Source: Candidatus Babeliales bacterium
GTDB taxonomy: Bacteria > Babelota > Babeliae > Babelales > UBA12411
Direction: 5' to 3'
DNA: 43,593 nucleotides
NCBI GenBank assembly: GCA_023128415.1
Contig: JAGMEA010000005.1
Location: forward strand, 1-43,593
A model generated the notes under the pieces. The model did not search any database and was not told the DNA's origin. It saw only the letters and a program-made list of their open reading frames with translations. Positions 1,616 to 33,469 of the stretch are shown in pieces; within the stretch, counting starts at the first letter, position 1, and each line of letters starts with the position of its first letter. A program made the translations under genes and the position numbers.

Positions 1616-2317
1616 ATGAACAAAAAGAAATGTTTGGCGATTATTCCAGCTCGTGGAGGAAGTAAAAGGATACCAAGAAAGAATATTAAACCCTTTTTTG
1701 GTAAACCAATCATAAAATATTCTATAGATGCTGCATTGGAATCAAATTGTTTTGATGAAGTCATGGTGTCTACTGAAGACAAAGAAATTGCTTCACTAGC
1801 CAGTTCTTTAGGAGCCAAGATTCCCTTTTTTAGATCATTAAGAACAGCAGATGGAAACATTATGTTTGTTGATGTTGTAAAAGAGGTTTTAGAAGACTAT
1901 GAGAAACTAGGTAGTTCTTTTGATTATTTTTGCTGCATATTAGCTACAGCGCCATTTGTAACACCGGAATTATTGCAAAAAGGTTTTAAAAAATTATTAG
2001 ATTCAAAGGCAAGCTCGCTTATTCCGATAATAGCAGCTAATCATCCAATGCATCAATCCCTTGAATTAAAAGACGGTCGAGCTGTTCCTTTGTGGCCGGA
2101 TTGTCTACAAGAAAGATCTCAAGATCTATTAAAGGTCTATTTTAATAGTGGTTTATTTTTATGGGTTAGTATTCCAGCTTTTAAAAAGCAAGAACTGTTG
2201 ATAACCGATAATTGTGCTACCATTATAGTTCCTGAATTGGAAGCGCAGGATATAGATACCGAAGAGGACTGGATTTTAGCTGAACTAAAATATAAAAGAC
2301 TTAAGTTTAGTTCTTAA
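1616..2317 (+). CDS. neuA: Acylneuraminate/pseudaminate cytidylyltransferase (copy 1)
   Basis: N-terminal 'AIIPARGGSKRIPRKNIKPFFGKPII' and C-terminal 'ELEAQDIDTEEDW', typical of CMP-nonulosonate synthetases. Confidence 0.85.
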   Translation: MNKKKCLAIIPARGGSKRIPRKNIKPFFGKPIIKYSIDAALESNCFDEVMVSTEDKEIASLASSLGAKIPFFRSLRTADGNIMFVDVVKEVLEDYEKLGSSFDYFCCILATAPFVTPELLQKGFKKLLDSKASSLIPIIAANHPMHQSLELKDGRAVPLWPDCLQERSQDLLKVYFNSGLFLWVSIPAFKKQELLITDNCATIIVPELEAQDIDTEEDWILAELKYKRLKFSS

Positions 2318-2349: not shown

Positions 2350-3357
2350 GTGTTTAATTATAAATCAGTTTTAGTTACAGGTGGAACGGGTTCTTTTGGG
2401 AAAAAATTTATCGCAACTATTTTAAAGGATTATCCTAGTTTAGAAAAAGTTATAGTTTTTTCGCGTGATGAATTTAAACAGTTTACTATGTCCAATATGC
2501 CTGAATTTAGAAATCAAAATAAATTAAGGTTTTTTATTGGAGATGTTAGAGATAAAGAGCGTTTATATCGGGCTTTTGATGGCATTGATGTAGTAATTCA
2601 TGCTGCTGCTCTTAAACAAGTACCATCTTGTGAATATAATCCATTTGAAGCCATTAAAACTAATATTTTAGGGGCTCAAAATGTTATTGATGCTGCTATA
2701 GATAGAGATGTAAAACGAGTTATTGCCTTAAGTACAGACAAAGCTTGCGCACCAATTAATTTATATGGGGCAACAAAATTATGCGCAGATAAGTTATTTA
2801 TAGCAGGTAATGTTTATTCGGGTTGGAGAAAAACACGGTTTTCTGTTGTTAGGTATGGCAATGTAGTTGGTAGTAGGGGCTCGGTTATTCCTTATTTTAA
2901 GGAACTTATTGGCAAGGGTGTTAAAGAATTGCCGATAACGGACTATCGGATGACCCGCTTTTGGTTAAAACTAGAGGATGCTGTCAAAATGGTTTTGCGG
3001 GGTCTGGAGCTTATGCAAGAGGGTGAAATTTTTGTAAAAAAAGTTCCGTCTATGAAAATTGTTGAACTTGCTAAAATTATGGCCCCATCTTTAAAAATTA
3101 AAGAAGTTGGTATAAGACCTGGTGAAAAATTGCATGAATTATTAATTTCCAGGGAAGATGCTCAACATACTATTGATTGCGGTGATTATTATGTTATCCA
3201 ACCTATGCAGCAGATTTTAGGTGATCAGAAAAAATTTATTCCGGCAAGATTGTTGGATCAAAATTTTGAATATAGTAGTGGAAACAATCATGAATGGTTA
3301 ACAGAAGAGCAAATGTTAAACATGATTCAAGATTTGGAGAATGATTCATATGTATAG
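2350..3357 (+). CDS. pseB: PseB/FlaA1-type UDP-GlcNAc 4,6-dehydratase (SDR)
   Basis: 'VTGGTGSFGKKF', 'VFSRDEFKQ', 'AALKQVPSCEYNPFEAIKTNILGAQNV', 'LSTDKACAPINLYGATK'. GTG start. Confidence 0.85.
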   Translation: MFNYKSVLVTGGTGSFGKKFIATILKDYPSLEKVIVFSRDEFKQFTMSNMPEFRNQNKLRFFIGDVRDKERLYRAFDGIDVVIHAAALKQVPSCEYNPFEAIKTNILGAQNVIDAAIDRDVKRVIALSTDKACAPINLYGATKLCADKLFIAGNVYSGWRKTRFSVVRYGNVVGSRGSVIPYFKELIGKGVKELPITDYRMTRFWLKLEDAVKMVLRGLELMQEGEIFVKKVPSMKIVELAKIMAPSLKIKEVGIRPGEKLHELLISREDAQHTIDCGDYYVIQPMQQILGDQKKFIPARLLDQNFEYSSGNNHEWLTEEQMLNMIQDLENDSYV

Positions 3358-4147
3358 AATAGGATTAAAAGTTTGGTCTATTAATAAAAACTATATAAAA
3401 GATGCTGTTTCTTTATATAAAGAAGGAGTTTATGACTACATAGAGCTATTTTCTGTTCCGGGATCCTATGAAATGTGCATTGATTGGTGGAAGGATTTAG
3501 ATATTCCTTATGTGATTCATGCACCACATTCAGGTTGTAATATGAACTTTGCCAAAAAAGAATTTTTGGATAGCAATTTAAAAATGGCATTTGAAGCATT
3601 AAAGTATGCAGACACTTTAAAAGCTGAAATTGTTATTTTCCATCCAGGTGTTGAGGGTGATATAAAAGAGACAGCTTTTCAGATCAATAAAATTAATGAT
3701 TCTAGAATGACTATTGAAAACAAGCCTTATTATGCATTACATGATAATCTCATTAATAATGGATATTCTCCAGAAGATATAAAATTTCTAAAGGAATCAT
3801 GTAACATTGGTTTTTGTTTAGATATTCCCCATGCCATTTATTCGGCCAATTCTCAGAAGATTGATAGGTTAAGTTATCTAGAAAAATTTATTAAATTAAA
3901 TCCTATAATTTTTCATATATATGATGGTGATTATTTTGGTGTTTATGATTATCATAAAAAATTCGGTGAAGGATCATTCAGCTTTGGGGAGATTTTTAAG
4001 ATTTTGCCTTTGAATCGACCTATTTCTATAGAGACACCAAAAAAATCTAAAGAAAATTTGGAAGATTTTAAACAAGATGCTTACTTCTTAAAAGGGCTTT
4101 TTTCTTCTGCGGAGGAGATACCTGAAAAATGGACAGAAAAAATATAG
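3350..4147 (+). CDS. Xylose isomerase-like TIM-barrel (sugar phosphate isomerase/epimerase)
   Basis: Starts inside the end of the upstream ORF. 'VIHAPHSGCNMNFAKKE', 'IVIFHPG', 'MTIENKPY', 'CLDIPHAIYSAN', 'ISIETPKKSKENLEDFKQD' fit AP-endonuclease family 2 TIM barrels. Confidence 0.65.
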   Translation: MYRIGLKVWSINKNYIKDAVSLYKEGVYDYIELFSVPGSYEMCIDWWKDLDIPYVIHAPHSGCNMNFAKKEFLDSNLKMAFEALKYADTLKAEIVIFHPGVEGDIKETAFQINKINDSRMTIENKPYYALHDNLINNGYSPEDIKFLKESCNIGFCLDIPHAIYSANSQKIDRLSYLEKFIKLNPIIFHIYDGDYFGVYDYHKKFGEGSFSFGEIFKILPLNRPISIETPKKSKENLEDFKQDAYFLKGLFSSAEEIPEKWTEKI

Positions 4148-4836
4148 TTATAGCTACAATAAAATCTTGGAATATTGCTTTAGCACAGGAGTTTAAAGAG
4201 CAATATAAAAATGATTATAATGTTTTTATAATAACTGATAAATCAGAGCTAACGTATGATTTATTAGGAGAAATTAAGCCTGTCTATGTATTCTTTCCAC
4301 ATTGGTCTTGGATAATATCCTCAGATATATGTGAAAATTTTGAATGTATTGTTTTTCATCCTACTGATTTGCCTTATGGTCGTGGTGGTAGTCCAATACA
4401 AAATTTAATTGTAAATAAGCAATATGAAACGAAGGTCTCAGTTATCAAAGCAGACAAGGGGATAGATTCTGGTTTAATTTACTTTAAAGAACCATTTTAT
4501 CTCGGAACAGGAAATGTTGAAGAGTTACTAAAAATGTATGCCCGAACTATATTTTATAAATTAATTCCAAAGTTTTTAGCTGAAAAGCCAATTCCTATCG
4601 AGCAAAGTGGAGAGGTTGTAAAATTTGTAAGAAGAAAACCTAGTGAAAGCAGGATTTCTGAAGAGAGGCTTATAAATTTAAACGATTTTTATGACCATAT
4701 TCGAATGCTAGATGGGGAAGGCTATCCAAAAGCTTTTATACAATTAGGTAATTTTAAAATTTTATTTTCTGGTGTTCATAAAAGCAGTGGAGAACTTAAG
4801 GGCATTTTTGAAATTAAAGAAGAAAAGTTAGGTTAA
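4129..4836 (+). CDS. Formyltransferase-fold protein (sugar N-formyltransferase-like)
   Basis: 'VFHPTDLPYGRGGSPIQNLI' matches the formyltransferase HxSxLPxxxG region, and 'ADKGIDSGLIY' the Asp loop. Confidence 0.75.
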   Translation: MDRKNIVIATIKSWNIALAQEFKEQYKNDYNVFIITDKSELTYDLLGEIKPVYVFFPHWSWIISSDICENFECIVFHPTDLPYGRGGSPIQNLIVNKQYETKVSVIKADKGIDSGLIYFKEPFYLGTGNVEELLKMYARTIFYKLIPKFLAEKPIPIEQSGEVVKFVRRKPSESRISEERLINLNDFYDHIRMLDGEGYPKAFIQLGNFKILFSGVHKSSGELKGIFEIKEEKLG

Positions 4837-6275
4837 TATAATCCTTCAGAGATTTGTTGCTTTGGTTTAGGCATCATTTTAGTCTGCATTTTATATGCTT
4901 TGATTATGTTATCAATCAACATTGCTATAGTTAAAGGTCCAACGCCTCCTGGTATGGGAGTGATATAAGACACCTTTTTTATTACACGATCAAAGTCGAC
5001 ATCACCAACTGTTTTATCATTTAGTTTTGCTGTTCCAGCGTCAATAACAATAGTTCCTTTTTTAATATGCTTTTCGGTTATAAGGTGGGGTACTCCAGTA
5101 GCACTAATTAAAATATCAGCTTGTAACGTTTTTGCTCTTATATTTGGAGTGTCAAGTGTGCATACAGTAAATGGTAGTTGTAAATTTTGTAACATTTGAG
5201 CTAGCGGTTGCCCGACAAGAAAACCATGTCCAACTAATACAATTTTTTTATTTTTTAAACTTATATTGTAATGTTTTAATATTGTTAAAATGCCCTGCGG
5301 AGTGCAGCATGGGAAATATTCATAGTTTTGAATTAATTGATTTCTAGAAAAATCTGTTAGGCAATCAACGTCTTTTGCTGGAGTAATAGTATTTATTATA
5401 TATTTGGTATTTAATTGTTTAGGTAGTGGTAACTGAATGAGAATTCCTGTAACGGTTTTATTTTTGTTTAATTCTTTTACTATTTTTATAATGGTAGATT
5501 CAGTTATGTTTTCTGGAAATTTTATTAATTCAAAATCAATTCCTGTATTTTGGCATATTTTAATTTTTTTTCTCACGTATATTTGAGATGCCGGATCCTC
5601 TCCGACTAGTATTACAGCAAGTTTGGCGTGAATATTTTCTTTTTTAATTTGAATTTTTTTTGTATTTAAAAAAAATTCTGATAATAATGCGCCATTTAAA
5701 ATTTTATCTTTATAAATCCTTTTTTTTGTTTTTAAAATTTCACCCTCAGTAACTATCCAATGAATAGACTGATCATGTTTTTCTGTAGGTATTTTTGATA
5801 AGATCTGTTCTTCGTATGCTAGGCAAATAGTTTCTAAAGAGTGATTCAGGCTTAAAAATTTATCATAAAAACTTCCGCCCCTACCGAGCCTATTCCCAGA
5901 TTTATCAACCCCAATACATGGTATAATTAAAAGATCAAGAGTTAGGGCGTTTTTTAAAGGACAAGTTGGTTTTGGCTCCCTAATGCCATATTCACCTATT
6001 GTTGTTTCGTTTAAATTTTTTATTTGTCTAAAAATGAGAGAAGTTTTAGTTGTTTTGGGAAGGCAAATTTCTTTGCCTAGGCTTAATAGCTTTTGAATAA
6101 GCTTATGAGTTTTTACTTCGTGATCTTTTGAGTAATAAAGTCCGATTCTCTTTGCTTCTTTAATTTGTTTTAATGATAACAAATTTTCAATTACATGCTG
6201 TGATTTTACTTCTAGAGCTTTATTTGTTAATAATTGTATTTTATTTTTTATTGATTTTCTTAAAGTATTTTTCAT
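4833..6275 (-). CDS. folD: Fusion: N-terminal 5-formyltetrahydrofolate cyclo-ligase (MTHFS) and C-terminal FolD methylene-THF dehydrogenase/cyclohydrolase
   Basis: N-terminal half 'RLGRGGSFYDKFL...CLAYEEQIL' (MTHFS). C-terminal half 'VGEDPASQIYVRKK', 'GILIQLPLPKQLN', 'PAKDVDCLTD', 'PCCTPQGI', 'TPIPGGVGPLTIAMLIDNII' (FolD). Confidence 0.9.
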   Translation of the reverse strand: MKNTLRKSIKNKIQLLTNKALEVKSQHVIENLLSLKQIKEAKRIGLYYSKDHEVKTHKLIQKLLSLGKEICLPKTTKTSLIFRQIKNLNETTIGEYGIREPKPTCPLKNALTLDLLIIPCIGVDKSGNRLGRGGSFYDKFLSLNHSLETICLAYEEQILSKIPTEKHDQSIHWIVTEGEILKTKKRIYKDKILNGALLSEFFLNTKKIQIKKENIHAKLAVILVGEDPASQIYVRKKIKICQNTGIDFELIKFPENITESTIIKIVKELNKNKTVTGILIQLPLPKQLNTKYIINTITPAKDVDCLTDFSRNQLIQNYEYFPCCTPQGILTILKHYNISLKNKKIVLVGHGFLVGQPLAQMLQNLQLPFTVCTLDTPNIRAKTLQADILISATGVPHLITEKHIKKGTIVIDAGTAKLNDKTVGDVDFDRVIKKVSYITPIPGGVGPLTIAMLIDNIIKAYKMQTKMMPKPKQQISEGLY

Positions 6276-6366
6276 TTTCTTTGCTTGTCGGAAAGTATTT
6301 ATTTTTTTATAGTTTATATCATCTAAAAAGTGTGAATAGATTTATGGTAATATTTTAGGTAACTAA

Positions 6367-7059
6367 ATGACTAAAACTAAAAAAATTGGTATAATTGCTG
6401 CGCATCCTGATGATGAGATTTTAGGTTGCGGGGGAGCAGTTGCAAAACACGTTAAAAATGGAGATGAAGTTCACGTTCTCATTGTGGCAGAAGGAATAAC
6501 TGCTAGAGATACCAAAAGAGATGTTGAAGCAAGAAAGGATGGTCTTGAGTTTCTAAGTAATTGTTCAAAAAGAGCAAACGAAATTTTGGGTGTTTCTTCT
6601 TTAACTATGAATAACTTTCCAGACAATAGAATGGATTCTATTGAGCGTTTAGATGTTATTAAATTGATAGAGAAATTTATTAAGAATATTTCACCCGAAG
6701 TTATTTATACTCATTTTGTTAATGACGTTAATATTGATCATCGTAGAGTTCATGATTCAGTAATTGCTGCTTGCAGACAGCTCCCTGGCAGTATTGTCAA
6801 AAGATTATTATTTTTTGAAATTGCTTCTAGTACTGAGTGGAGACCTCCATTAGGAGCAACTTTTTCACCTAATTGGTTTGTTGATGTGTCTGATACATTA
6901 TCAACAAAGTTAAAGGCATTAGAAGCATATAATTCTGAAATGCGAGATTTTCCACATCCAAGATCCCTAAAAGCATTGGAGTATTTGTCCAGATGGAGAG
7001 GTGCTACAATTGGAGTTGATGCAGCAGAAGCATTTGTTTTGGGTAGAAATGTAGAGTAG
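6367..7059 (+). CDS. PIG-L family deacetylase
   Basis: 'GIIAAHPDDEILGCGGAVAKH' zinc motif and 'NIDHRRVHDSVIAACR'. Confidence 0.9.
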   Translation: MTKTKKIGIIAAHPDDEILGCGGAVAKHVKNGDEVHVLIVAEGITARDTKRDVEARKDGLEFLSNCSKRANEILGVSSLTMNNFPDNRMDSIERLDVIKLIEKFIKNISPEVIYTHFVNDVNIDHRRVHDSVIAACRQLPGSIVKRLLFFEIASSTEWRPPLGATFSPNWFVDVSDTLSTKLKALEAYNSEMRDFPHPRSLKALEYLSRWRGATIGVDAAEAFVLGRNVE

Positions 7060-7941
7060 GTGAGTTTCGTGAAGGTACTGATTATTGGGTCTTCTGGAAT
7101 GTTAGGAAAGGCTCTTGTTAGAGAAGCCAAATTTCGCACCTTCGAGTGTTTTGGCGTAGATCTAGAAGATGCTGATTACAATATAAATATTACTAGTTAT
7201 CTTAAGCTAAAAGAATTAATAAGTTATCTACAACCGAATCTTATTATTAATACCGTAGCAATTGTTAATTTATTGGAATGTGAAAATAATCCGGAAAAGG
7301 CATATAATGTTAATGCTAAACCGGCTAAATTTTTAGCTGATTTAAGTCGATCTACAAATGCGTATTTTATACATATATCGACAGATCATTTTTACTCGGG
7401 AGACAAGGGTTCTTTACATAAAGAGGAAAACAGAATTTCCCTATTTAATGAATATGCCAAAACGAAGTATGTGGCTGAAGAATATGCATTGTCTAATCCT
7501 TCAGCCTTAATTGTTCGGACAAATATTATTGGCTTTCGTTATAAAGAGAATAAAACCTTTTTGGAGTGGGTTTTAGATTCTTTAGAAAATAAAAAACACA
7601 TGATTTTATTTGAAGATTTTTATACTTCTAGTATAGATGTTAAGCAATTTTCAAAAGCATTATTTGATTTAATAGATAAACGTCCTAAGGGTGTTTTGAA
7701 TTTGGCTAGTTCTGAAGTATTTAGTAAGAAGAGATTTATACAGTCCCTAGCAAGTGTGGTTGGATATGACTTGTCAAATACATCAACCGGGAGTATATTT
7801 TCTTTAAATGATGGAATTATAAGAGCCGAAAGTTTGGGCTTAGATGTTTCAATTGCAGAAAGGTTACTGGAATATAAATTGCCTAATTTAGATCAGGTTA
7901 TCCAAAGTATTGTTTCAGAATTTAATGAAAGGATTTTGTGA
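7060..7941 (+). CDS. RmlD-like SDR sugar reductase
   Basis: 'VLIIGSSGMLGKALV', 'HISTDHFYSGDKG', 'YAKTKYVAE' (YxxxK). GTG start, alternative GTG at 7069. Confidence 0.8.
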   Translation: MSFVKVLIIGSSGMLGKALVREAKFRTFECFGVDLEDADYNINITSYLKLKELISYLQPNLIINTVAIVNLLECENNPEKAYNVNAKPAKFLADLSRSTNAYFIHISTDHFYSGDKGSLHKEENRISLFNEYAKTKYVAEEYALSNPSALIVRTNIIGFRYKENKTFLEWVLDSLENKKHMILFEDFYTSSIDVKQFSKALFDLIDKRPKGVLNLASSEVFSKKRFIQSLASVVGYDLSNTSTGSIFSLNDGIIRAESLGLDVSIAERLLEYKLPNLDQVIQSIVSEFNERIL

Positions 7942-9011
7942 AGTATTCAACATCTTTTTTACTTAACGGACGAGAAATTTCAATAGATTCACCAACCTAT
8001 TTTATTGCTGATATTGCGTCTAATCATGATGGAGACTTAAATAAGGCGAAAGATCTCATTTGGTTGGCTAAAGAATCTGGAGCAGATGCTGCAAAATTTC
8101 AGCACTTTAAAGCAGAAACATTTGTTAGTGAAGTTGGATCTCAAAATTTAGGTAAAAAATTAAGTCACCAATCAAAATGGAAAAAATCAATATTTGAAGT
8201 CCATAAAGATGCCGAATGTAAAAGAGAATGGAGTGAAGAACTTTATAAAACTGCTAAAGAAGCAAATATAGATTTTTTTACAACTCCTTATGACTATGAA
8301 GCAATTGAATTATTAGATCCTTATATTTGTGCATATAAAATTGGATCTGGTGACATTAATTGGATTGATTTTATTCAAGCAATGGCAAAAAAAAATAAAC
8401 CAATATTTTTAGCCACAGGTGCTTCAATTATAGAAGAAGTAGAAAGAGCTGTAGAAGCCCTTCTTAAATGTAACGATAAACTTGTGCTTATGCAGTGTAA
8501 TACTAATTATACCGGCAGCTTGGATAACTTTAAGCATATAAATCTTCGTGTTTTACAGACATATGCATTAAGATTTCCCCAGATGATTTTAGGTTTGTCA
8601 GATCATACACCACATCATGCTACTGTTTTGGGAGCCATTGCTATGGGCGCTCGTGTAGTGGAGAAACATTTTACGAATGATAATGCACTTGAAGGGCCAG
8701 ATCATTTCTTTGCTATGAATCCTAAAAGCTGGAGGGAAATGATTGATAGAAGTAGAGAGTTGGAAGCTGCTTTAGGTGATGGTATTAAGCGTATAGAGCA
8801 AAATGAAAAAGAACCCATTATTGTTCAAAGACGTTCAATTAGGCTTAATAAAGATATAGGATCTGGTCATTTTATATCTGAAAAAGATCTTATATGTTTA
8901 CGTCCAGCGCCAGAAAATTCAATTTCTCCTTCAGATTTAAATAAAGTTTTGGGTCGTTCTCTAAAAAAATCTAAAAAATCTGGGGAGCACATTACTTTGG
9001 ATGATTTTTAA
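7938..9011 (+). CDS. neuB: N-acetylneuraminate/pseudaminate synthase-like (NeuB/PseI family, SAF domain)
   Basis: 'FIADIASNHDGDLNKAKDLIWLAKESGADAAKFQHF', 'YKIGSGDINW', 'LSDHTPHHATVLGAIAMGARVVEKHFT', C-terminal SAF-like 'RRSIRLNKDIGSGHFISEKDL'. Confidence 0.93.
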   Translation: MKYSTSFLLNGREISIDSPTYFIADIASNHDGDLNKAKDLIWLAKESGADAAKFQHFKAETFVSEVGSQNLGKKLSHQSKWKKSIFEVHKDAECKREWSEELYKTAKEANIDFFTTPYDYEAIELLDPYICAYKIGSGDINWIDFIQAMAKKNKPIFLATGASIIEEVERAVEALLKCNDKLVLMQCNTNYTGSLDNFKHINLRVLQTYALRFPQMILGLSDHTPHHATVLGAIAMGARVVEKHFTNDNALEGPDHFFAMNPKSWREMIDRSRELEAALGDGIKRIEQNEKEPIIVQRRSIRLNKDIGSGHFISEKDLICLRPAPENSISPSDLNKVLGRSLKKSKKSGEHITLDDF

Positions 9012-9905: not shown

Positions 9906-11195
9906 ATGTTAAAAAGATATTCTAGTTCAAATAAAATGCTTGAACGAGCACTAAAATCTATACCATTTGGGTCACAAACTTTTAGCAAGGGAAGGTCGCA
10001 TTATCCTTACGGAGCTTCTCCTTTATTTGCACAAAGAGGAGAAGGGAGCAGCCTTTGGGATGTTGATGGTAATGAATACATTGACTTTGTTAGTGCTTTA
10101 GCAGCTATTTTGCTTGGTTATAATGATAAGGATGTTATCCAAGCAGTTAAAAATCAACTAGATGAAGGAACTGTTTTTTCACTGTCACATTCAATAGAAT
10201 CGGAAGTTGCAGAAAAAATAATCAAGCTGATTCCTTGTGCGGAAATGGTTCGGTTTGGAAAAAATGGATCAGATGCTACTGCAGCAGCAGTTAGACTTGC
10301 TAGGGCATATACATGTAGGGATCATATTATTACTTGTGGTTATCATGGTTGGCAAGATTGGTATATAGGGTCGACTTCTAGAAACTTAGGGGTTCCAAAA
10401 TCTACTCAAAAACTAACACATAGTTTTATTTATAATGATATTGATTCATTGCAGAATGTGTTTAGTGAATTTAAAAATGAAGTTGCTGCTGTTATCATGG
10501 AGCCTATGAATAGCACATATCCTAAAGATGGTTTTTTGGAAGCTGTTAAGTCTCTTACGCACAAGAATGGAGCAGTTTTTATTTTTGATGAAGTTATTAC
10601 AGGATTTCGTTATTCACTAGGTGGGGCTCAAGAATTATTTAATGTTACTCCTGATTTGGCTACTTTTGGTAAGGCTATGTCTAATGGGTATCCAATTTCT
10701 GCTGTTGTTGGACGTGCAGATATAATGAAATTAATGGAAGATATTTTTTACTCTTTTACTTTTGCAGGTGAAACTATTTCTTTAGCTGCAACCCTGGCAA
10801 CTCTGAATAAATTAGAAAAGCAGCCTGTTCTTTCTACCGTTAATAAGCAAGGTGAAAAGGTAATTAAAGGAATTAATGTCTTAATAGAAGATCATGGAGT
10901 TTCTGATGTTTTTTCTCTTTCGGGCCATCCAAGCTGGACATTTTTATCTATTAACAATTTAAATTCATATTCTAGCTTTGAAGTTAAAACGTTACTTTTA
11001 CAAGAAATGTTTAAAAGAGGAATTTTAACTATTGGGACTCACAATATGACTTTTTCACATACTGACAAAGATATTGAGTGTTTGCTTGCTGCATATAATG
11101 AAGTTTTTCCATTTATTAAAAATGCTATTGATAATAAGCTATTGAATAATTTTATTGAGGGAGAAATTTTAAAACCTCTTTTTAAAATTAGATGA
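9906..11195 (+). CDS. Class-III PLP aminotransferase (glutamate-1-semialdehyde aminotransferase-like)
   Basis: 'LWDVDGNEYIDFV', 'VRFGKNGSDATAAAVRLARA', 'FDEVITGFR', 'FGKAMSNGYPISAVVGR' (PLP Lys). Confidence 0.88.
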   Translation: MLKRYSSSNKMLERALKSIPFGSQTFSKGRSHYPYGASPLFAQRGEGSSLWDVDGNEYIDFVSALAAILLGYNDKDVIQAVKNQLDEGTVFSLSHSIESEVAEKIIKLIPCAEMVRFGKNGSDATAAAVRLARAYTCRDHIITCGYHGWQDWYIGSTSRNLGVPKSTQKLTHSFIYNDIDSLQNVFSEFKNEVAAVIMEPMNSTYPKDGFLEAVKSLTHKNGAVFIFDEVITGFRYSLGGAQELFNVTPDLATFGKAMSNGYPISAVVGRADIMKLMEDIFYSFTFAGETISLAATLATLNKLEKQPVLSTVNKQGEKVIKGINVLIEDHGVSDVFSLSGHPSWTFLSINNLNSYSSFEVKTLLLQEMFKRGILTIGTHNMTFSHTDKDIECLLAAYNEVFPFIKNAIDNKLLNNFIEGEILKPLFKIR

Positions 11196-11222: not shown

Positions 11223-11963
11223 ATGAAGAAACACTTAGCGATTATTCCGGCTCGGGGTGGTAGTAAGAGAATTCCTAACAAAAATATACGTTCTTTTTTT
11301 GGTGCCCCTATTATTCAATATTCTATTAACGCAGCATTGCAATCAAATTGTTTTGATGAAGTAATGGTATCTACAGAAAATAAAAAAATTTCTGAAATTG
11401 CAATTTCTTGTGGAGCTAAAGTTCCTTTTTTTCGTTCAGATGAAATGGCTAGTAATGAGGCTATGTTCATAGAGGTAATGGAAGAAGTTCTAAATGAATA
11501 TGAAAAAAGAGGACAGAGTTTTGATACATTTTCTTGTCTTTTAGCCACTGCACCATTTTTGTCCCCTGGGCTATTTCAAAAAGCATTTAATTTATTAGAA
11601 TCTACCGGTGCAGATTCAGTATTGCCGGTTGTTCGTTCTAGTTATCCAGTTCAGCAGGCATTTAGGATAAAGGAGGGCAAGTTAGATCTTTTTTGGCCTA
11701 AGTATTATGAAGCTAGAACTCAAGATTTAGAGCCGTCCTATTTTGACTGTGGTTTATTTTTTTTAGTAAAAATTGAGGCTTTTAGGGATAAAAGAAAACT
11801 TGTGACAGAAAATAGTGTTCCTCTAATTGTATCAGAGTTAGAAGCACACGATATTGATACAGAAGAAGATTGGGCTATTGCTGAAAGAAAATATTATATT
11901 TTGAATAATTTCCCTAAAAAAACTGGAGAATCCGGATTGGGGTTTTTAAGTCGTGACAAGTAA
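11223..11963 (+). CDS. neuA: Acylneuraminate/pseudaminate cytidylyltransferase (copy 2)
   Basis: 'LAIIPARGGSKRIPNKNIRSFFGAPIIQYSINAALQSNCFDEVMVSTE' and 'ELEAHDIDTEEDW'. Clear paralog of 1616-2317. Confidence 0.85.
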   Translation: MKKHLAIIPARGGSKRIPNKNIRSFFGAPIIQYSINAALQSNCFDEVMVSTENKKISEIAISCGAKVPFFRSDEMASNEAMFIEVMEEVLNEYEKRGQSFDTFSCLLATAPFLSPGLFQKAFNLLESTGADSVLPVVRSSYPVQQAFRIKEGKLDLFWPKYYEARTQDLEPSYFDCGLFFLVKIEAFRDKRKLVTENSVPLIVSELEAHDIDTEEDWAIAERKYYILNNFPKKTGESGLGFLSRDK

Positions 11964-12927
11964 TATGCCTATTTATAATGTTCTTATTATTGGGGCTGGA
12001 AAAATCGGAGCTTTTTATGATTCTTCTAGCTCTCAAAATATACTAACTCATGCCCATGCATTTTCTTTGCACAAGGGGTTTAATCTAATTGGATTTGTAG
12101 ACTCTGATTTGTCTAAAGCGCAAGATGCTTGTTTAATGTGGAGTGGCACTTGTTTTAATTCAATAGAAGATGCATTTAGTAAAAATCAGATAGATGTTGT
12201 GTGTGTTGCTGTTCCTGATGAGTACCATTATGCTGTTTTGGATAAATTAGCATTTTATTCTCCCAAGTTAGTTTTTGCTGAAAAACCATTAACAAAAACA
12301 ATAGAAGAAGCTGAGAGAATATTAACATTGTATCAAGAAAAAAAGATTCCTTTGTTAGTTAATTATACTCGGAGATTTGTTCCAGAGATTGTAGAAATAA
12401 AAGAAAAAATCCAAGCGGGATTTTATGGGGAATATGTTACTGGCACAGCATATTACGGAAAAGGAATTACACATAATGGGTCACACATAATAGATATCGT
12501 AAGATTATTTTTGGGTGAGATTATTGATTTTAAGGTAGCATCTTTTAAATTTGATTTTTATAAAGATGATCCAAGTGTTTCTGGCGTTTTGAAGTTGCAA
12601 AATAAAAAAGATTTTTTTTTACAAGCCGTTGATAGTCGGATATATGCACTTTTTGAAATAGATTTAATATTTGAGAATGGTAGAATTAGAATCAATGATA
12701 CAAATTTTCAGTTTGAAGAGTTCACTGTGAAAAATGATCCTATTTTTAAAGAAGCTTTTAATTTAGTTAAATCTAAAAAAATTACCTTAAGCCAAGGTAA
12801 GGCTTTGTTATTTGCGTGTGATAATATTTATAACAATCTTCTAAAAAATGAAAATTTGAAGTGTTCTGCTATTGAAGCATTAAGATCCTTAGACGTTTGT
12901 TTATCCATATCTAAAGGGTTGCAATGA
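11953..12927 (+). CDS. Gfo/Idh/MocA-family oxidoreductase
   Basis: 'NVLIIGAGKIGAFYDSS', 'DVVCVAVPDEYHYAVLDKLAFYSPKLVFAEKPLTKTIEEAERI'. Confidence 0.88.
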   Translation: MTSNMPIYNVLIIGAGKIGAFYDSSSSQNILTHAHAFSLHKGFNLIGFVDSDLSKAQDACLMWSGTCFNSIEDAFSKNQIDVVCVAVPDEYHYAVLDKLAFYSPKLVFAEKPLTKTIEEAERILTLYQEKKIPLLVNYTRRFVPEIVEIKEKIQAGFYGEYVTGTAYYGKGITHNGSHIIDIVRLFLGEIIDFKVASFKFDFYKDDPSVSGVLKLQNKKDFFLQAVDSRIYALFEIDLIFENGRIRINDTNFQFEEFTVKNDPIFKEAFNLVKSKKITLSQGKALLFACDNIYNNLLKNENLKCSAIEALRSLDVCLSISKGLQ

Positions 12928-14057
12928 GTAAAGTGCTCCTTTTTTCGCATGATTTTGGTGGAGCTAATACGATAATACCTTTAGTAAAAAAATTACGGAA
13001 ACGTAATTGTAATGTTTTATTATATGGAAAAAATTATTCTTTAAAAAAATATTTAGCTTTTGGCTTAGATAGTAAAAATATTGACGATGAAATCAATTCA
13101 GAAATTTATACAGATGTTTTAAATTTTGTAAAAAAAGAAAAACCAGACTTAATTATTACAGGAACAAGTGCTGAAGATTTTACTGAAAAATATCTTTGGA
13201 TAGCTGCAAATAGCTTAAAAATTCCAACGTGTGCGATTTTGGATCAATGGATGAATTATGGTGTGCGTTTTTCAAAGTACCCAGTTTCATTGATTGAAGA
13301 GTATGAAAAAGAAAAAAAACATGATTATATGCCATCCAAAATTGCTGTAATGGATGATTATGCTAAGAAAGAAGCAATTCTAGAGGGATTAGATGAAGAT
13401 AAAATTATTATAACGGGACAACCATATTTTGATTTATTATTAGATTGGAAAAAATCTATCACTAAAATCAACTTTAATTCACTTAAGTCTAAATTGGGAA
13501 TCAACCAATCAGATTTTGTTATAACATATATTTCTGATTATATTTCGAGTATATATGGCAATATGTTTGGTTATACAGATTTAACTGTTTTTCAAGAATT
13601 AATTAATGCTCTAGATATAGTTGCAAGAGATAAAAACATCAAAATTTCTCTAATAATTAAGCGTCATCCTACAGAAGAAAATGATCTTTATACTCCCTTG
13701 ATAAAGAATTTTAACAATAAAAATATAAAATTTATTTTAGTAGATAATTTATATAATCCTTTTGATTTAATTGGGATGTCCGATTTACTTTGTGGAATTT
13801 CGTCTATTATGCTTATTGAGTCATTAATTATTGGCAAGCCTATTATTAGTATTCAGATTGGTCTAAAAAGAAAAAGCTTTTTTCCTCTAGATTCTAGGGG
13901 GTTAGTGAAAAGTATTATGGATTCTCAGGATTTGATCCAAAAGATAATTTCTATTATTGAAAATAAAGAAAATAGGTGCGAATTTAACATCTTGTCTGAT
14001 GCAGCTTCAAATTTGATAAACAAACTAGAGGTATTATATGGCAAAATTGGCAGTTAA
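12924..14057 (+). CDS. GT-B-fold-like protein of glycan loci (glycosyltransferase / UDP-sugar hydrolase-epimerase-like), function unknown
   Basis: 'LLFSHDFGGANTIIPLVKKLRKR', 'DLIITGTSAEDFTEKYLW', 'IKRHPTEENDLYTPLI', 'DLLCGISSIMLIESLIIGKPIISIQIG'. Confidence 0.6.
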   Translation: MSKVLLFSHDFGGANTIIPLVKKLRKRNCNVLLYGKNYSLKKYLAFGLDSKNIDDEINSEIYTDVLNFVKKEKPDLIITGTSAEDFTEKYLWIAANSLKIPTCAILDQWMNYGVRFSKYPVSLIEEYEKEKKHDYMPSKIAVMDDYAKKEAILEGLDEDKIIITGQPYFDLLLDWKKSITKINFNSLKSKLGINQSDFVITYISDYISSIYGNMFGYTDLTVFQELINALDIVARDKNIKISLIIKRHPTEENDLYTPLIKNFNNKNIKFILVDNLYNPFDLIGMSDLLCGISSIMLIESLIIGKPIISIQIGLKRKSFFPLDSRGLVKSIMDSQDLIQKIISIIENKENRCEFNILSDAASNLINKLEVLYGKIGS

Positions 14058-15390
14058 TGGTGGTAAAAAACTGAGGGACAGAAAATTTTCTTACTCCAAT
14101 TTTATTTTGGATGAAGAAAAAAAGGCAGCTTTAGATGTTTTAGATGGTGGTATACTATCGCAGTATTTAGGTTGTTCGCATGAAAACTTTTATGGTGGCA
14201 AAAGAGTACAGAAATTTGAAGAAGAGTGGGCAGAATATTTTGGAGTTAAGCATGCTATAGCCGTTAATTCTGCGACTTCAGGATTATACTGTGCAGTTGG
14301 AGCAACAGGAGTGGAAGTTGCTGATGAAATTATTGTTTCTCCGTATACCATGAGTTGTTCTGCTGTTGCACCATTGATTTATAATTCAATTCCTATCTTT
14401 GCTGATATTGAAAAAGATTTTTTTTGCCTAGATCCTGATTCTGTAAGAGAGAAAATAACTTCTAGGACGAAGGCTATAATTGTAGTAGATATTTTTGGAA
14501 ATCCGTATGATGCAAAAAAAATTAATGATTTAGCCAGAGAACACAATCTTTTAGTTATTGAGGACTGTGCTCAAGCCCCTGGGGCCTTTTATCAGGGAAA
14601 ACCAGCAGGTACTCTTGGTGATATTGGTATTTATTCATTAAATTATCATAAACACATCCATACAGGGGAAGGCGGAGTCGTAGTTACCAATAATGATACA
14701 GTTGCCGAAAAAATCCGTTTAATTAGGAATCACGCAGAAGCTGTATTAGATGGGCAAAGATCTAATGATTTAGTAAACATGCTTGGTTTTAATTATAGGA
14801 TGTTGGAAATTCAAGCAGCTATTGGAAGTATTCAATTAAAAAGATTAAAAGATTTGGTTTTAGAGCGTCAAAAAAATGTAAATTATCTTTCCAATAGGCT
14901 ATCACAAATACCTTGCTTAAGGCCGATGGGTCCACGTGAGGGTTCAACTCATTCATTTTATTTACACCCAATTAAGTTTAATTCAGAGGTTGCTAGTGTA
15001 GATAGAAATACTTTTGTTGATGCTGTTAAAGCAGAATTGCCATTTATGGAAAAGCGAGAAAAAGAGGGGGTGCTGATTGAGAGTGGCTATGTTAAACCTT
15101 TATATTTACAGCCTTTATATCAATCGAAAATGGCTTATGGTTCTAAACATTTTCCTTGGAGTTATACACAAGAGGGAATGTCGATAAATTATAATAAGGG
15201 CTTGTGTCCAGTTTCAGAGTTGATGTTTGAAAAGGAACTGATTGTTCACGAATTGATTCGTTCTGGAATGAAGCAAGTTGACTTAGATGATGTAGCATGT
15301 GCATTTGAAAAGGTGTGGAATTATAGAGAGGAGCTCAATGGTTTTTCCATTTTTAATAGGGGAAAAAATTTATCTACGGAAGCTTTCTGA
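14038..15390 (+). CDS. DegT/DnrJ/EryC1/StrS aminotransferase
   Basis: 'HAIAVNSATSGLYCAVGA', 'IVVDIFGNP', 'VIEDCAQAPGA', 'IYSLNYHKHIHTGEGGVVVTNN'. Confidence 0.9.
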   Translation: MAKLAVNGGKKLRDRKFSYSNFILDEEKKAALDVLDGGILSQYLGCSHENFYGGKRVQKFEEEWAEYFGVKHAIAVNSATSGLYCAVGATGVEVADEIIVSPYTMSCSAVAPLIYNSIPIFADIEKDFFCLDPDSVREKITSRTKAIIVVDIFGNPYDAKKINDLAREHNLLVIEDCAQAPGAFYQGKPAGTLGDIGIYSLNYHKHIHTGEGGVVVTNNDTVAEKIRLIRNHAEAVLDGQRSNDLVNMLGFNYRMLEIQAAIGSIQLKRLKDLVLERQKNVNYLSNRLSQIPCLRPMGPREGSTHSFYLHPIKFNSEVASVDRNTFVDAVKAELPFMEKREKEGVLIESGYVKPLYLQPLYQSKMAYGSKHFPWSYTQEGMSINYNKGLCPVSELMFEKELIVHELIRSGMKQVDLDDVACAFEKVWNYREELNGFSIFNRGKNLSTEAF

Positions 15391-15877
15391 GGAGGACGCC
15401 CAAGGAAATTATCCTGGATGGTTAAATGATCAGATCGTATGTAATAATAACTCCCATGCAGTATTTCCTTATTCTAGAAAAGAGGCATTAGATTATATTT
15501 TAAATATACATAAAAATTCGGAATCGCTTGTATTAGCGATAACATTGAAGAATGATGATAGGCACATAGGTAATATTTCTCTTCAGTGTATAAATAACAT
15601 TAATCGCAGTGCTGAACTAGCTATTTTGATAGGGGAGAAAGATTGTTGGGGCAAAGGATATTCAAAGGAAGCTGCAAAATTAATTGTGTCTCATGGTTTT
15701 AATAAAATGAACTTAAATAGAATATGTTGTGGAACGTCTTCCAAAAATTTTGCCATGCAAAAGTTAGCACAATTTTTGGGTATGAAAGAAGAGGGAAATA
15801 GGCGTAAGGCGCTTTATTTAAATGGTGAATATTTAGACTTAATTGAATATGGTCTATTGAAAGATGATTTTTGTTAG
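15338..15877 (+). CDS. GNAT N-acetyltransferase (RimJ/RimL-like)
   Basis: ATG at 15338 with GAGAGGAG upstream, inside the upstream ORF. 'IGEKIYLRKLSEEDAQGNYPGWLNDQ', 'IGEKDCWGKGYSKEAAKLIVSHGF', 'NRICCGTSSKNFAMQKLAQFLGM'. Confidence 0.85.
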   Translation: MVFPFLIGEKIYLRKLSEEDAQGNYPGWLNDQIVCNNNSHAVFPYSRKEALDYILNIHKNSESLVLAITLKNDDRHIGNISLQCINNINRSAELAILIGEKDCWGKGYSKEAAKLIVSHGFNKMNLNRICCGTSSKNFAMQKLAQFLGMKEEGNRRKALYLNGEYLDLIEYGLLKDDFC

Positions 15878-15897: not shown

Positions 15898-17094
15898 ATG
15901 GGTATTGAATCACCACAAGGTCCTTTGTTCAAAAATTTAAGATATTGTTTACGTTGCTGTGTTCCAGAAACAGAGGAAGGTATGAGTTTTGATGAAATGG
16001 GAATGTGCCAGTCTTGTCAATCATCAGAACAAAAAATGCATATTGATTGGACTGTTCGCGAGAAAAAATTAAGAAATCTTTTAGAAGATGCTAAGGCTAA
16101 AGCTGGCAATAATTATGATTGTATTGTGCCGATTAGCGGAGGGAAAGATAGTACTTTTCAGCTGCATGTTTTGGTTAAAGTTTACAACATGAAGCCGCTG
16201 GCCGTAACATTCAATCATAATTGGTATAATGAAATTGGTTGGTATAACTTACAAAATGCTTTAGAAAAATTTAATGTTGATCACATAATGTTTACTCCCA
16301 ATAGGAAATTGGTAAATCGTTTAGCCAAAAGCTCTTTGGGAGCTATTGGTGATGCCTGTTGGCATTGTCATGCAGGTGTTGGAGCATTTCCATTGCAAGT
16401 TGCTGTTAATTTTAAAATTCCTTTATTAATATGGGGTGAATCAATAGCAGAGGCTTCTGGTAGAGCAACGTATAATGACCCCAAAATTGTTTTTGATAGA
16501 GAATATTTTACGAGAGTTTCTGCGAAGAAAACAGCTAAACAAATGGTTGATGAAGATTTGAGTGAAAAAGATTTAGCGCCATTTGAGATCCCTTCGTCTG
16601 AGAGTTGTGAAGCTGTAGGAGTGCATGGGATTCATCTAGGGGACTATATTTTTTGGGACGATGAGAGACAAATGGAATTTGTTAAAAGGACTTATGAGTG
16701 GAAAGAGGTTAACATAGAGGGAACTTATAAAAGATATAAGAGTGCAGAATGTGTGCTGCCAGGAATGCATGACTTTACTAAATATTTAAAAAGAGGATTT
16801 GGTAGGGCTACTGATCATGCATGTATAGATGTGAGAAATGGATTACTTTCAAGAAGTGAAGGTTTTAAATTGGCCAAAAAATATGATACTCAAGAGCCAA
16901 ACGCTTTAAAATATTATTTGAAAATCACAGGAATGACAGAGAAAGAATTTTATGAAGCTATGAAAAAACATAGAGTTTCTCAGCTACAGGACATCGATCT
17001 TCCTATTTCCAAAGATAAAAAAAAGGAAGAAGTTGAACCATTTGTACAGACCTTTTTAAAGAGAATTAGAAAAGAATATCCTGATAATGAGTAG
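15898..17094 (+). CDS. N-acetyl sugar amidotransferase (WbpG/PseA-like PP-loop enzyme)
   Basis: 'YCLRCCVPETEEGMSFDEMGMCQSCQ' Cys motif and 'CIVPISGGKDSTFQLHVL' PP-loop, then 'WYNLQNALEKFNVDHIMFTPNRKL'. Confidence 0.9.
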   Translation: MGIESPQGPLFKNLRYCLRCCVPETEEGMSFDEMGMCQSCQSSEQKMHIDWTVREKKLRNLLEDAKAKAGNNYDCIVPISGGKDSTFQLHVLVKVYNMKPLAVTFNHNWYNEIGWYNLQNALEKFNVDHIMFTPNRKLVNRLAKSSLGAIGDACWHCHAGVGAFPLQVAVNFKIPLLIWGESIAEASGRATYNDPKIVFDREYFTRVSAKKTAKQMVDEDLSEKDLAPFEIPSSESCEAVGVHGIHLGDYIFWDDERQMEFVKRTYEWKEVNIEGTYKRYKSAECVLPGMHDFTKYLKRGFGRATDHACIDVRNGLLSRSEGFKLAKKYDTQEPNALKYYLKITGMTEKEFYEAMKKHRVSQLQDIDLPISKDKKKEEVEPFVQTFLKRIRKEYPDNE

Positions 17095-18520
17095 TAGTAT
17101 GAAAAATAGTTTTTTAGATTTAAGTATTAAGCAAATACTTAATAAGTATTCTGAAGGAACTTTTGATTCGGTAGATGTTGCCAAAATGTGTATTGATCAT
17201 GTTAATAGTTTAGAAAAATATGTTCATTCTTGGGTGAAATTTGATTCCGATCATTTATTATCTAAGGCTCACGATAGTTTGGATAATATAAAAAGAGGTA
17301 TTATTCGCAGTTTGGAGGGTATACCCATTGGGGTCAAAGACATTTTTAATACTGTTGATTTTACGACGGAAATGGGGAGTTCTTTATGGAAAGGTTTTAC
17401 TCCCGGGAATGATGCTAGAGTAGTTTTTGAATTGAAAGAAGCAGGGGGAATTATTCCAGGCAAAACAACTACGGCCGAATTTGCTGTACATGCTTTAGAC
17501 AAAACTTTAAATCCTCACGATAGTTCTAGAACTCCAGGAACGTCTTCTAGTGGTTCTGCTGTTGCTACAGCTTTAGGAATGGTGCCAGCAGCACTGGCTA
17601 CTCAGACTGCAGGATCTATTGTCAGGCCGGCAAGTTTTTGCGGTATTTATGGTTTTAAACCTTCATTTGGGCTAATTCCTAGGAAGGGTGTTTTAAAAAC
17701 AACAGATACTTTAGATTCTATAGGTTTTTTCGTCACTCATCTTGAAGATATTACTAATGTTTTTAATATTTTAAGAGTTAAAGGAAGGGATTATCCTTTA
17801 AGCAATTTTGCTTTGAATGACATTTCTAGACAAAGCTCTCCAATAAATCGGCCGTGGAGAGTCGCTTTTGTAAGGACCCATGTTGATCAATTTGCAGAGT
17901 CGTATGCTAAAGAAAGTTTGAATAGTTGGTTAAAACATATTCAAAAAAATTGCAAAGAGATCGAAATTGATGAAATTAATTTACCTGAGATAATGAACAA
18001 TGCTCATGAAGTTCATTCAACTATTTATTACAAGTCTTTAGCCTATTACTTCCAAAAAGAATATGTTAATAGGGAGTCGATTTCTTCAATAATGAGCAAG
18101 CTTATTAATAAGGGTAACCTTATATTGAACGAGAGCTTTAAAAATGCTTTAGTGATACAAGAAGAAATGGTTGAAGCAATGGATTCCTTCTTTGATAAAT
18201 ATGATATTTTGGTTTCTTTAAGTACAGCAGGGGTTGCTCCTTTAAGGAGTCAAAATGAAAAACCGGATACGGCTTTTATGTGGACAATGACATATTTACC
18301 AATAATTTCCGCCCCAGCATTTGTTTCAGATCAAGGGTTACCTTTTGGTGTTCAACTTGTGTCTAAAAGGTACAATGATTTTTTATTAATTAGATTTGCT
18401 GAAAATTTATTAAATAAAGGATTGCTATCTAAAGGTCCAAATCCGTTGTCATATCTAATAAAGCAGGGTAATCAAAATCGAATTGATACTTATGATCGGA
18501 AAGAGAATTTACTTACGTAA
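17087..18520 (+). CDS. Amidase-signature family amidase (GatA-like)
   Basis: Complete-looking Ser-cisSer-Lys signature: 'GIPIGVKDIFNT' (Lys), 'PGTSSSGSAVATALGM', 'QTAGSIVRPASFCGIYGFKPSFG'. Start overlaps the upstream stop by 8 nt. Confidence 0.9.
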   Translation: MSSSMKNSFLDLSIKQILNKYSEGTFDSVDVAKMCIDHVNSLEKYVHSWVKFDSDHLLSKAHDSLDNIKRGIIRSLEGIPIGVKDIFNTVDFTTEMGSSLWKGFTPGNDARVVFELKEAGGIIPGKTTTAEFAVHALDKTLNPHDSSRTPGTSSSGSAVATALGMVPAALATQTAGSIVRPASFCGIYGFKPSFGLIPRKGVLKTTDTLDSIGFFVTHLEDITNVFNILRVKGRDYPLSNFALNDISRQSSPINRPWRVAFVRTHVDQFAESYAKESLNSWLKHIQKNCKEIEIDEINLPEIMNNAHEVHSTIYYKSLAYYFQKEYVNRESISSIMSKLINKGNLILNESFKNALVIQEEMVEAMDSFFDKYDILVSLSTAGVAPLRSQNEKPDTAFMWTMTYLPIISAPAFVSDQGLPFGVQLVSKRYNDFLLIRFAENLLNKGLLSKGPNPLSYLIKQGNQNRIDTYDRKENLLT

Positions 18521-18992
18521 GCTTAGAGTTGAGGATGCTTCACAAGAATATTGTAATTGGTTGAATGACTTTGAAGTAAACAGGTTTTTATCTACTAAAA
18601 AAATAACTATTAAGGAAATTAAAAATTATCTTGAAGAGCAGCTTAATAAAGAAGATGCTCTTTTTGTTGGTATTTTTGACAAATTTAATAATAAACATAT
18701 TGGTAATATTAAATTGGAACCTATTGATTATAAAAATAAAATTGCAACTTTGGGAATATTGATAGGTAATAAAAATTACTGGGGAAAAGGCATTGGTAAA
18801 GAAGCTGTAAAATTGATTATAGACTATAGTTTTAAAGTTTTAAAGTTAAAAAAAATTGATTTAAGTGTGATTATAGATAATCAAAGAGCGATTAGATTAT
18901 ACAAGAGTGTTGGATTCAAAGTTTTAAATTATTACAAGTGCCTCATAAAACATACGGATAAAGTTAAGATGGAGCTGGTTCATTCTAATTAA
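18492..18992 (+). CDS. GNAT N-acetyltransferase (second copy)
   Basis: 'MIGKRIYLRKLRVEDASQEYCNWLNDFEVNRF', 'IGNKNYWGKGIGKEAVKLIIDYSF', 'IDNQRAIRLYKSVGF'. TTG at 18483 is an alternative start. Confidence 0.87.
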   Translation: MIGKRIYLRKLRVEDASQEYCNWLNDFEVNRFLSTKKITIKEIKNYLEEQLNKEDALFVGIFDKFNNKHIGNIKLEPIDYKNKIATLGILIGNKNYWGKGIGKEAVKLIIDYSFKVLKLKKIDLSVIIDNQRAIRLYKSVGFKVLNYYKCLIKHTDKVKMELVHSN

Positions 18993-31501: not shown

Positions 31502-33469
31502 ATGTGCGGTATCTCTGGAATAATTTCTGACGAATCTGTTGATAATAAGAAAGTCTTGAGATCCGAGGTTATAAAAATGACCGATGCATTGAAGCATCGG
31601 GGGAATAATGAACCAAAATTTTTTGAAGACTCTCGATGCTTTTTTGGACATCAGCGTTTATCAATAATTGATCTAAGTCCAGCTGCAGCTCAGCCGATGC
31701 CCAGCCTTTGTGGGCGATATGTAATTGTTTTTAATGGAGAGATTTATAATTATATAGAGCTTGCTTCGGAATTACGACAGCATGGAGCTAACGTTTCAGG
31801 GAACAATGACACAGAAGTCCTTCTTTATAGTTATATAGTTTGGGGAAAAGACTGCTTAGATAAATTAAGGGGAATGTTTTCTTTTGCGATTTGGGATTTA
31901 AAGAAACAAAAACTATTTGCGGCAAGAGACCATTTAGGAATTAAACCGTTTTATTGGTTTAATGGTAATATTGAAGGAAAACAGTGTTTCGCTTTTGCTT
32001 CAGAAATAAAATCCTTTCTTAAAACTTCTTTCATTTCTAGAATTGTTAATAAACAGGCCCTTAAAAATTATTTGTTGTTTTATAGTATTAATCCACCAAA
32101 TACTATTATCAAAGATATTTATTCGTTAATGCCTGGTCATTATCTAGAATATGAAAATGGTAATATCAAAACATCTTCTTATTGGAGTGTTTTTAACTTA
32201 AAAACTGATCAGAGATGGCAAGGTGTTGAAGAAATCCAAGCTAGGGTTAGAGAAACTTTATATGAGTCCGTAAAACTTAGAATGAGGGCTGACGTTTCAG
32301 TAGGAGCATTTTTAAGCGGAGGATTGGATTCGGCAACTATCGTTGGTCTTATGTCCTCTTTGTCTGATAAGCCAGTTGAAACTTTTAGCGTTGGTTTTGG
32401 AAAAGAGGGTGATTATATAAATGAGCTTAATTACGCAAAGCTTGCAGCGCAAAAGTTTGCTAGCAATCATCACGAACTTGTAATTGAAGGTAATGATTTT
32501 AAATCCAATTTCAAAAAATTTATTTCACATATAGATCAACCAAGTGGGGATGGTATTAATTCTTTTTTAGTATCACAGGCTGCAGCCAATAAGGTTACAG
32601 TTGCTTTATCTGGATTAGGCGGAGATGAGTTGTTTTTAGGGTATAGATATTTTCAAGATCTTGCTCGGATGTACCGAATTAAAAGTAAAAAAGTTCTAAA
32701 TAAATTGGTTTTTGTTTTAGCTGAGATTTATAAACGAAGCGATAATTTTAAGGCTTTTGCTTGGAAAAATAAATTAAACTTTTTAAAACATTGGCCTGCT
32801 GATGGCTGTAATTTTTATTTTAAAAATAGAATTCTTTTTTCTAATAATGATTTAGAAGAACTTACAAATATGTCTCTTCCAGAATTTGATTTTGTTTCAA
32901 ACTATAAGCATGCCTTTGAAAATGAAGAAGATATTTTGAATGCTTTTTCTAAATTAGAATTAGCATGGTATACAACGGGGACTTTGTTGCGAGATGCCGA
33001 TGTAACTTCTATGGCCCATACGCTAGAGGTTAGGGTTCCGTTTTTAGATAAAAATCTTATTGAGCTTATGTTAAATGTTCCAAGTAGCTATAAGGTTAAT
33101 GCTGGTCAAAAAAGCAATAAGCCATTGTTAACAGGGGCTTTTGATGACTTGTTGCCTAAAGAGTTATTGTCTTTGCCTAAAAAGGGCTTTGAGATGCCCA
33201 TAGGATTTTGGCTAAAAGATAATTTTTCTACAAAATTAAACGATTTAATAAATGTTTCCTGGTTCAATAAAGAGTATATGATAAAATTAACGAATAAGTT
33301 TTATAAAGATCCTAGGAACTATTTAAAGATTTGGGCTTTATTAGTTCTAAAGGAATGGTTAGAAGAAAATAGAATCGAGATATCTGATGAAGAAGATTCT
33401 TTATATACATCATGGACAGGGCCTAGGGGGAGCGCCGCTGAGCCTTCTCTATTTGATCGAGGGGCTTGA
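31502..33469 (+). CDS. asnB: Asparagine synthase-like glutamine-hydrolysing amidotransferase
   Basis: 'MCGISGIISDES' (Cys nucleophile), 'RGMFSFAIWD', 'VGAFLSGGLDSATIVGL' PP-loop, 'HTLEVRVPFLDKNLIEL'. Confidence 0.92.
   Translation: MCGISGIISDESVDNKKVLRSEVIKMTDALKHRGNNEPKFFEDSRCFFGHQRLSIIDLSPAAAQPMPSLCGRYVIVFNGEIYNYIELASELRQHGANVSGNNDTEVLLYSYIVWGKDCLDKLRGMFSFAIWDLKKQKLFAARDHLGIKPFYWFNGNIEGKQCFAFASEIKSFLKTSFISRIVNKQALKNYLLFYSINPPNTIIKDIYSLMPGHYLEYENGNIKTSSYWSVFNLKTDQRWQGVEEIQARVRETLYESVKLRMRADVSVGAFLSGGLDSATIVGLMSSLSDKPVETFSVGFGKEGDYINELNYAKLAAQKFASNHHELVIEGNDFKSNFKKFISHIDQPSGDGINSFLVSQAAANKVTVALSGLGGDELFLGYRYFQDLARMYRIKSKKVLNKLVFVLAEIYKRSDNFKAFAWKNKLNFLKHWPADGCNFYFKNRILFSNNDLEELTNMSLPEFDFVSNYKHAFENEEDILNAFSKLELAWYTTGTLLRDADVTSMAHTLEVRVPFLDKNLIELMLNVPSSYKVNAGQKSNKPLLTGAFDDLLPKELLSLPKKGFEMPIGFWLKDNFSTKLNDLINVSWFNKEYMIKLTNKFYKDPRNYLKIWALLVLKEWLEENRIEISDEEDSLYTSWTGPRGSAAEPSLFDRGA

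Follow-up and report, generated by a model that had tools for sequence, protein, structure and literature searches.

The WbuX-amidase locus

The window (the whole 43,593-nucleotide stretch of DNA that was analysed) is a polysaccharide island with pseudaminic-acid-type genes. Within it lie two intact open reading frames, overlapping by 8 nt, for an amidotransferase of the WbuX/WbpG/PseA family and an amidase-signature enzyme. The pair and the sugar genes around it are as follows.

1616..2317, + strand: second PseF-type cytidylyltransferase (TIGR03584, 249.5 bits, above cut-off)
2350..3357, + strand: PseB-type UDP-GlcNAc 4,6-dehydratase (TIGR03589, 507.7 bits, above cut-off)
7938..9011, + strand: NeuB-family nonulosonate synthase (PF03102, 232.8 bits; below the NeuB_NnaB and PseI cut-offs)
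11223..11963, + strand: PseF-type CMP-nonulosonate cytidylyltransferase (TIGR03584, 247 bits, above cut-off)
11953..12927, + strand: Gfo/Idh/MocA dehydrogenase, same module as the pair (PF01408, 70 bits; recurs)
14038..15390, + strand: PseC-like DegT/DnrJ aminotransferase, same module as the pair (PF01041, 281 bits; recurs)
15299..15877, + strand: GNAT N-acetyltransferase, proposed maker of the acetamido group that WbuX would convert to acetamidino (PF13302; beside the pair in most loci)
15898..17094, + strand: WbuX/WbpG/PseA-family N-acetyl-sugar amidotransferase (PP-loop ATPase, zinc tetracysteine), amidase-coupled subfamily (TIGR03573, SGGKDS and CxxC..CxxC, tree clade)
17087..18520, + strand: amidase-signature enzyme, proposed ammonia donor; triad K84/S153/S177, malonamidase-like R180 (PF01425, alignment, clade 100/100)
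18483..18992, + strand: second GNAT, of uncertain role in this system; overlaps the amidase gene at the latter's 3' end (PF13302; PseH-like below cut-off)

The WbuX protein scores 352.2 bits against TIGR03573, where the curated cut-off is 203.2, and has an SGGKDS PP-loop at residue 80 as well as a CxxC...CxxC zinc motif. An SGGxDS PP-loop and a tetracysteine CxxC...CxxC define the WbuX-type motifs, and LpNASAT (structure 8WEX) is a PP-loop, zinc-tetracysteine amidotransferase of the TIGR03573 kind (PMC10607449). The window protein is predicted to introduce an acetamidino group into an N-acetyl sugar. The amidase scores 224 bits against PF01425 (cut-off 27) and falls under all of the equivalog cut-offs shown, GatA's included; its Lys-cisSer-Ser triad (Lys84, Ser153 and Ser177) is intact in the alignment, and its predicted activity is the release of ammonia from a primary amide. 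These results agree with the first-pass annotation, which had described a WbpG/PseA-like amidotransferase at 15898 followed, with the same 8-nt overlap, by an amidase-signature gene with an intact-looking Lys/Ser-cisSer signature.

A Gfo/Idh dehydrogenase, a PseC-like aminotransferase and a GNAT lie beside the pair in most of the loci described below, and the NeuB types vary from one paired locus to another. In the WbpB-WbpE-WbpD-WbpG pathway of P. aeruginosa, synthesis of an acetamido group precedes its amidination; the dehydrogenase-aminotransferase-GNAT set beside the pair parallels the WbpB-WbpE-WbpD steps ahead of WbpG, and these neighbours probably build the acetamido group first. The same island also encodes an asparagine synthase with a class-II glutaminase domain (31502-33469), a HemL-like class-III aminotransferase (9906-11195) and a formyltransferase-like protein (4129-4836).

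Co-conservation of the pair

Scanning of ∼85,000 genomes with the window amidase yielded 78 relatives. The best five of these (L034-L038, at 46–54%) each have a WbuX of the same subfamily directly upstream (60–65% to that of the window), and no WbuX lies beside any of the other 73. In the Desulfovibrionaceae member (L035) the two proteins form one uninterrupted 875-aa ORF, with WbuX at residues 6–390 and the amidase at 416–874. The adjacency is not due to chance, as the pair recurs in Betaproteobacteria, Desulfovibrionaceae (fused), Ignavibacteria, a further Bacteroidota-phylum genome, Synergistaceae, another proteobacterium and tailed phages; 13 loci with a paired amidase span five phyla in addition to the phages. 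Five IMG/VR loci (L113-L117) have WbuX followed by the amidase, the order is swapped in L130/L131 with a 90-aa ORF between the two genes, and in G929 the amidase lies two genes from WbuX. The genome survey that the first-pass annotation had suggested, of the pair's co-occurrence without HisH/HisF, thus revealed strong co-conservation together with a natural fusion and phage-borne copies, and functional coupling of WbuX and the amidase is strongly supported. No member of the amidase-coupled WbuX subfamily was found in plasmid records (best 35%) or in phage GenBank records.

An AlphaFold2 model of the fused L035 protein has a mean pLDDT of 77 and a pTM of 0.56; the linker (393-414) is disordered, and the model does not decide how the two halves are placed. 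A C-terminal WbuX tail (...PFxQQ...) was considered as a pair-specific interface and ruled out, being absent from the amidase-bearing L113 and L223.

Amidase or HisH/HisF as the partner of WbuX

The usual ammonia supplier of a WbuX-type enzyme is made up of two proteins, the HisH glutaminase and a HisF-like partner. The window contains neither, as had been claimed for it. HisH/HisF paralogues elsewhere in the genome had been named as evidence that would speak against an amidase-coupled system, and none was found in the 949-kb, 93.3% complete assembly: searches of the whole genome for HisF/HisA-type proteins (PF00977) and for HisF2 (NF038364) gave no match, and the only class-I GATase match (PF00117) lies in a 554-aa frame that, from its length, is probably PyrG-like. 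The window pair does not belong to a WbuX-HisH-HisF system, HisH and HisF2 being absent from window and genome alike. It is possible that HisH/HisF lie in the missing part of this genome; the other loci are independent of that. The true GatA of the genome is a separate gene (at C34), and another genome of the same order (L005/G067) carries a normal WbuX-HisH-HisF set.

WbuX profile surveys covered 395 genomes in the phylum of G102, 395 in that of G103 and 398 in that of G101. The scores fall into two groups, with the paired type at 540–806 bits and all others at or below 312 bits. Within flanks of ∼1.5 kb, both HisH and HisF were present at 58 of the 87 survey loci, one of them at six, an amidase at four and neither kind of partner at 19 (G929 among them); a few of these 87 loci are repeat views of the same place. 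HisH and/or HisF lie within ∼1.5 kb at 64 of the 82 low-scoring loci, some of which are likewise repeat views, and an amidase at 0/82. The two kinds of partner are mutually exclusive: no amidase was found beside a WbuX outside the paired clade among the surveyed loci, and no HisH/HisF next to a paired-clade WbuX among the loci examined. Two genomes have both kinds of system at separate places, G105 with a HisH-HisF-WbuX cluster besides its paired WbuX, and G104 (Synergistaceae) with HisH/HisF2 near a second, divergent WbuX-like stretch away from the paired one. At four HisH/HisF-type loci (L145, L148, L197 and L199) a single ORF joins WbuX to HisF, much as WbuX is joined to the amidase in L035. 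WbuX has N-terminal extensions of ∼260–380 aa in L202 and L218.

The window system shares with WbpG-HisH2-HisF2, WbuX-WbuY-WbuZ and PseA the same PP-loop, zinc-tetracysteine amidotransferase in nonulosonate/O-antigen clusters, but differs in having an amidase in place of HisH and HisF and a WbuX of a separate clade.

Phylogeny of the two partners

In an IQ-TREE phylogeny of 89 WbuX sequences the 13 paired proteins form one clade (100/97), nested within the HisH/HisF-linked radiation. Some members of a neighbouring clade (L138, L140, L144, L172, L195 and others) have adjacent HisH/HisF, and a phage WbuX (L118) is sister to the paired clade (100/100). The paired amidases also form one clade (100/100), separate from GatA, and the pairwise distances of WbuX and amidase are correlated (r = 0.48, Mantel p = 0.004). 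We read the trees and this correlation as pointing to a single partner replacement followed by joint transfer. The partner switch is one evolutionary event, and the paired loci are therefore not independent of one another. Fisher tests are left out of the evidence on account of this relatedness and of rounding in their counts.

Relationship of the amidase to GatA

Lys84, Ser153 and Ser177 are invariant in 12 paired amidases. Against the GatA equivalog TIGR00132 the window amidase misses the cut-off (204.3 vs 481.1 bits), and in all paired amidases the alignment has gaps where GatA carries its segments at S. aureus Tyr309 and Asp425; we take these segments to be glutamine-binding, so that glutamine is no more than a possible donor. 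Malonamidase E2 Arg158 corresponds to R180 and is kept in all paired amidases; the Arg is also present in aligned unpaired non-GatA amidases and is thus not diagnostic. Structure comparison with the fused L035 model places malonamidase E2 and AtzE first and GatA after. Malonamidase E2 and AtzE-type amidases are the closest in solved sequence and fold and have the same triad and Arg, but they are not paired with WbuX, and the paired amidases form a clade of their own.

Judged from these alignments and scores, the paired amidase is not a GatA. The earlier label of a GatA-type amidase holds only loosely: the protein is nearer to malonamidase E2/AtzE and lacks the GatA-specific segments. The likeness to GatCAB is that an amidase-signature subunit is proposed as the source of ammonia for a partner that uses ATP; here, however, that partner is a PP-loop sugar enzyme and not GatB, and no GatC was recognised among the ORFs neighbouring the pair.

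Phage-borne copies

PHROGs comparisons identify terminase, portal, head-tail adaptor, two major tail proteins and tape measure genes around the pair in L115/G108, confirming that this locus belongs to a tailed phage. In the phages the pair is kept together between the major tail and tail-completion genes, whereas the other sugar genes are scattered. The phage of L118/G111 has a WbuX gene (5995-7086) that adjoins the terminase gene, and neither amidase nor HisH/HisF was found on its 59-kb contig; free or host ammonia may be enough for this enzyme. Nonulosonic-acid genes (PseF, Gfo, aminotransferase, GNAT, WbuX plus amidase, PseB, RmlD and NeuB) are interspersed among virion structural genes in several tailed phages (L229 2967-15408, L230 1410-3642, IMG/VR G108; L114, L116 and L119).

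A proposed amidase-coupled sugar amidotransferase

The best explanation of these observations, to which we give a probability of about 0.7, is that the amidase has replaced HisH/HisF as the ammonia donor of WbuX. WbuX and the amidase would be a two-component (and once a one-component) amidotransferase, in which the Ser-cisSer-Lys triad of the amidase would free ammonia by hydrolysis of a small primary amide, with glutamine and asparagine the likeliest. WbuX would use ATP to activate an N-acetyl group carried by a nonulosonic-acid-type sugar, and the activated group would react with the ammonia to become acetamidino; the ammonia transfer, the substrate and a channel are what we infer here. The amidase would have taken the place of the HisH glutaminase and HisF-like partner once, and the two genes would afterwards have moved together by horizontal transfer, between phyla as well as into phages.

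The ammonia that the amidase supplies might instead come neither from glutamine nor from asparagine but from another amide, for instance a malonamate-like one, as the amidase's best sequence and structure match is malonamidase E2 and R180 is kept throughout; we think this unlikely, the Arg being shared with unpaired amidases. It might also act in the same sugar pathway on another bond, removing or exchanging a nonulosonate N-acyl group before or after WbuX, which would use free ammonia. In favour of this, amidase-signature enzymes act on many different substrates, the paired amidases are without the GatA-specific segments and have malonamidase E2 and AtzE as their neighbours in fold, and L118 is a relative without an amidase. 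However, the fusion is to WbuX and not to the GNAT or the aminotransferase, HisH/HisF are strictly replaced, and the pair is retained across different NeuB types, all of which makes action on another bond distinctly improbable. Gene shuffling is frequent in polysaccharide islands, and the arrangement could in principle be coincidental with no functional link, but we find this scarcely credible: it is already contradicted by the survey, by recurrence in five phyla and phages, by the fusion in L035 and the swapped order in L130/L131, and by the monophyly of both partners.

With replacement of HisH/HisF by the amidase as the preferred reading, we consider it reasonably likely that the pair is an undescribed architecture, in which an amidase feeds ammonia, possibly via a channel, to an amidino-sugar PP-loop ATP-pyrophosphatase, and which arose by a single partner swap and spread across bacterial phyla and also by phages. 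No published description of WbuX with an amidase, or of acetamidino with an amidase, was found in the open-access literature. Known donors for PP-loop enzymes include class-I GATase, Ntn-type and nitrilase-type ones, and GatA-GatB is, to our knowledge, the established amidase-signature ammonia donor in a two-enzyme amidotransferase. If the proposal is true, the PP-loop/amidase pair is a second, independent case beside GatA-GatB, and shows that a single acceptor enzyme can exchange its donor module. The proposal can be tested directly on the natural 875-aa fusion, and the pair can serve in genomes as a marker of acetamidino-nonulosonic acids, both in uncultured bacteria and in tailed phages with sugar genes of their own. 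At one Synergistaceae locus (L037, 1489-4320) the aminotransferase, WbuX, amidase and cytidylyltransferase genes directly follow a flagellin-like gene, which suggests flagellin glycosylation.
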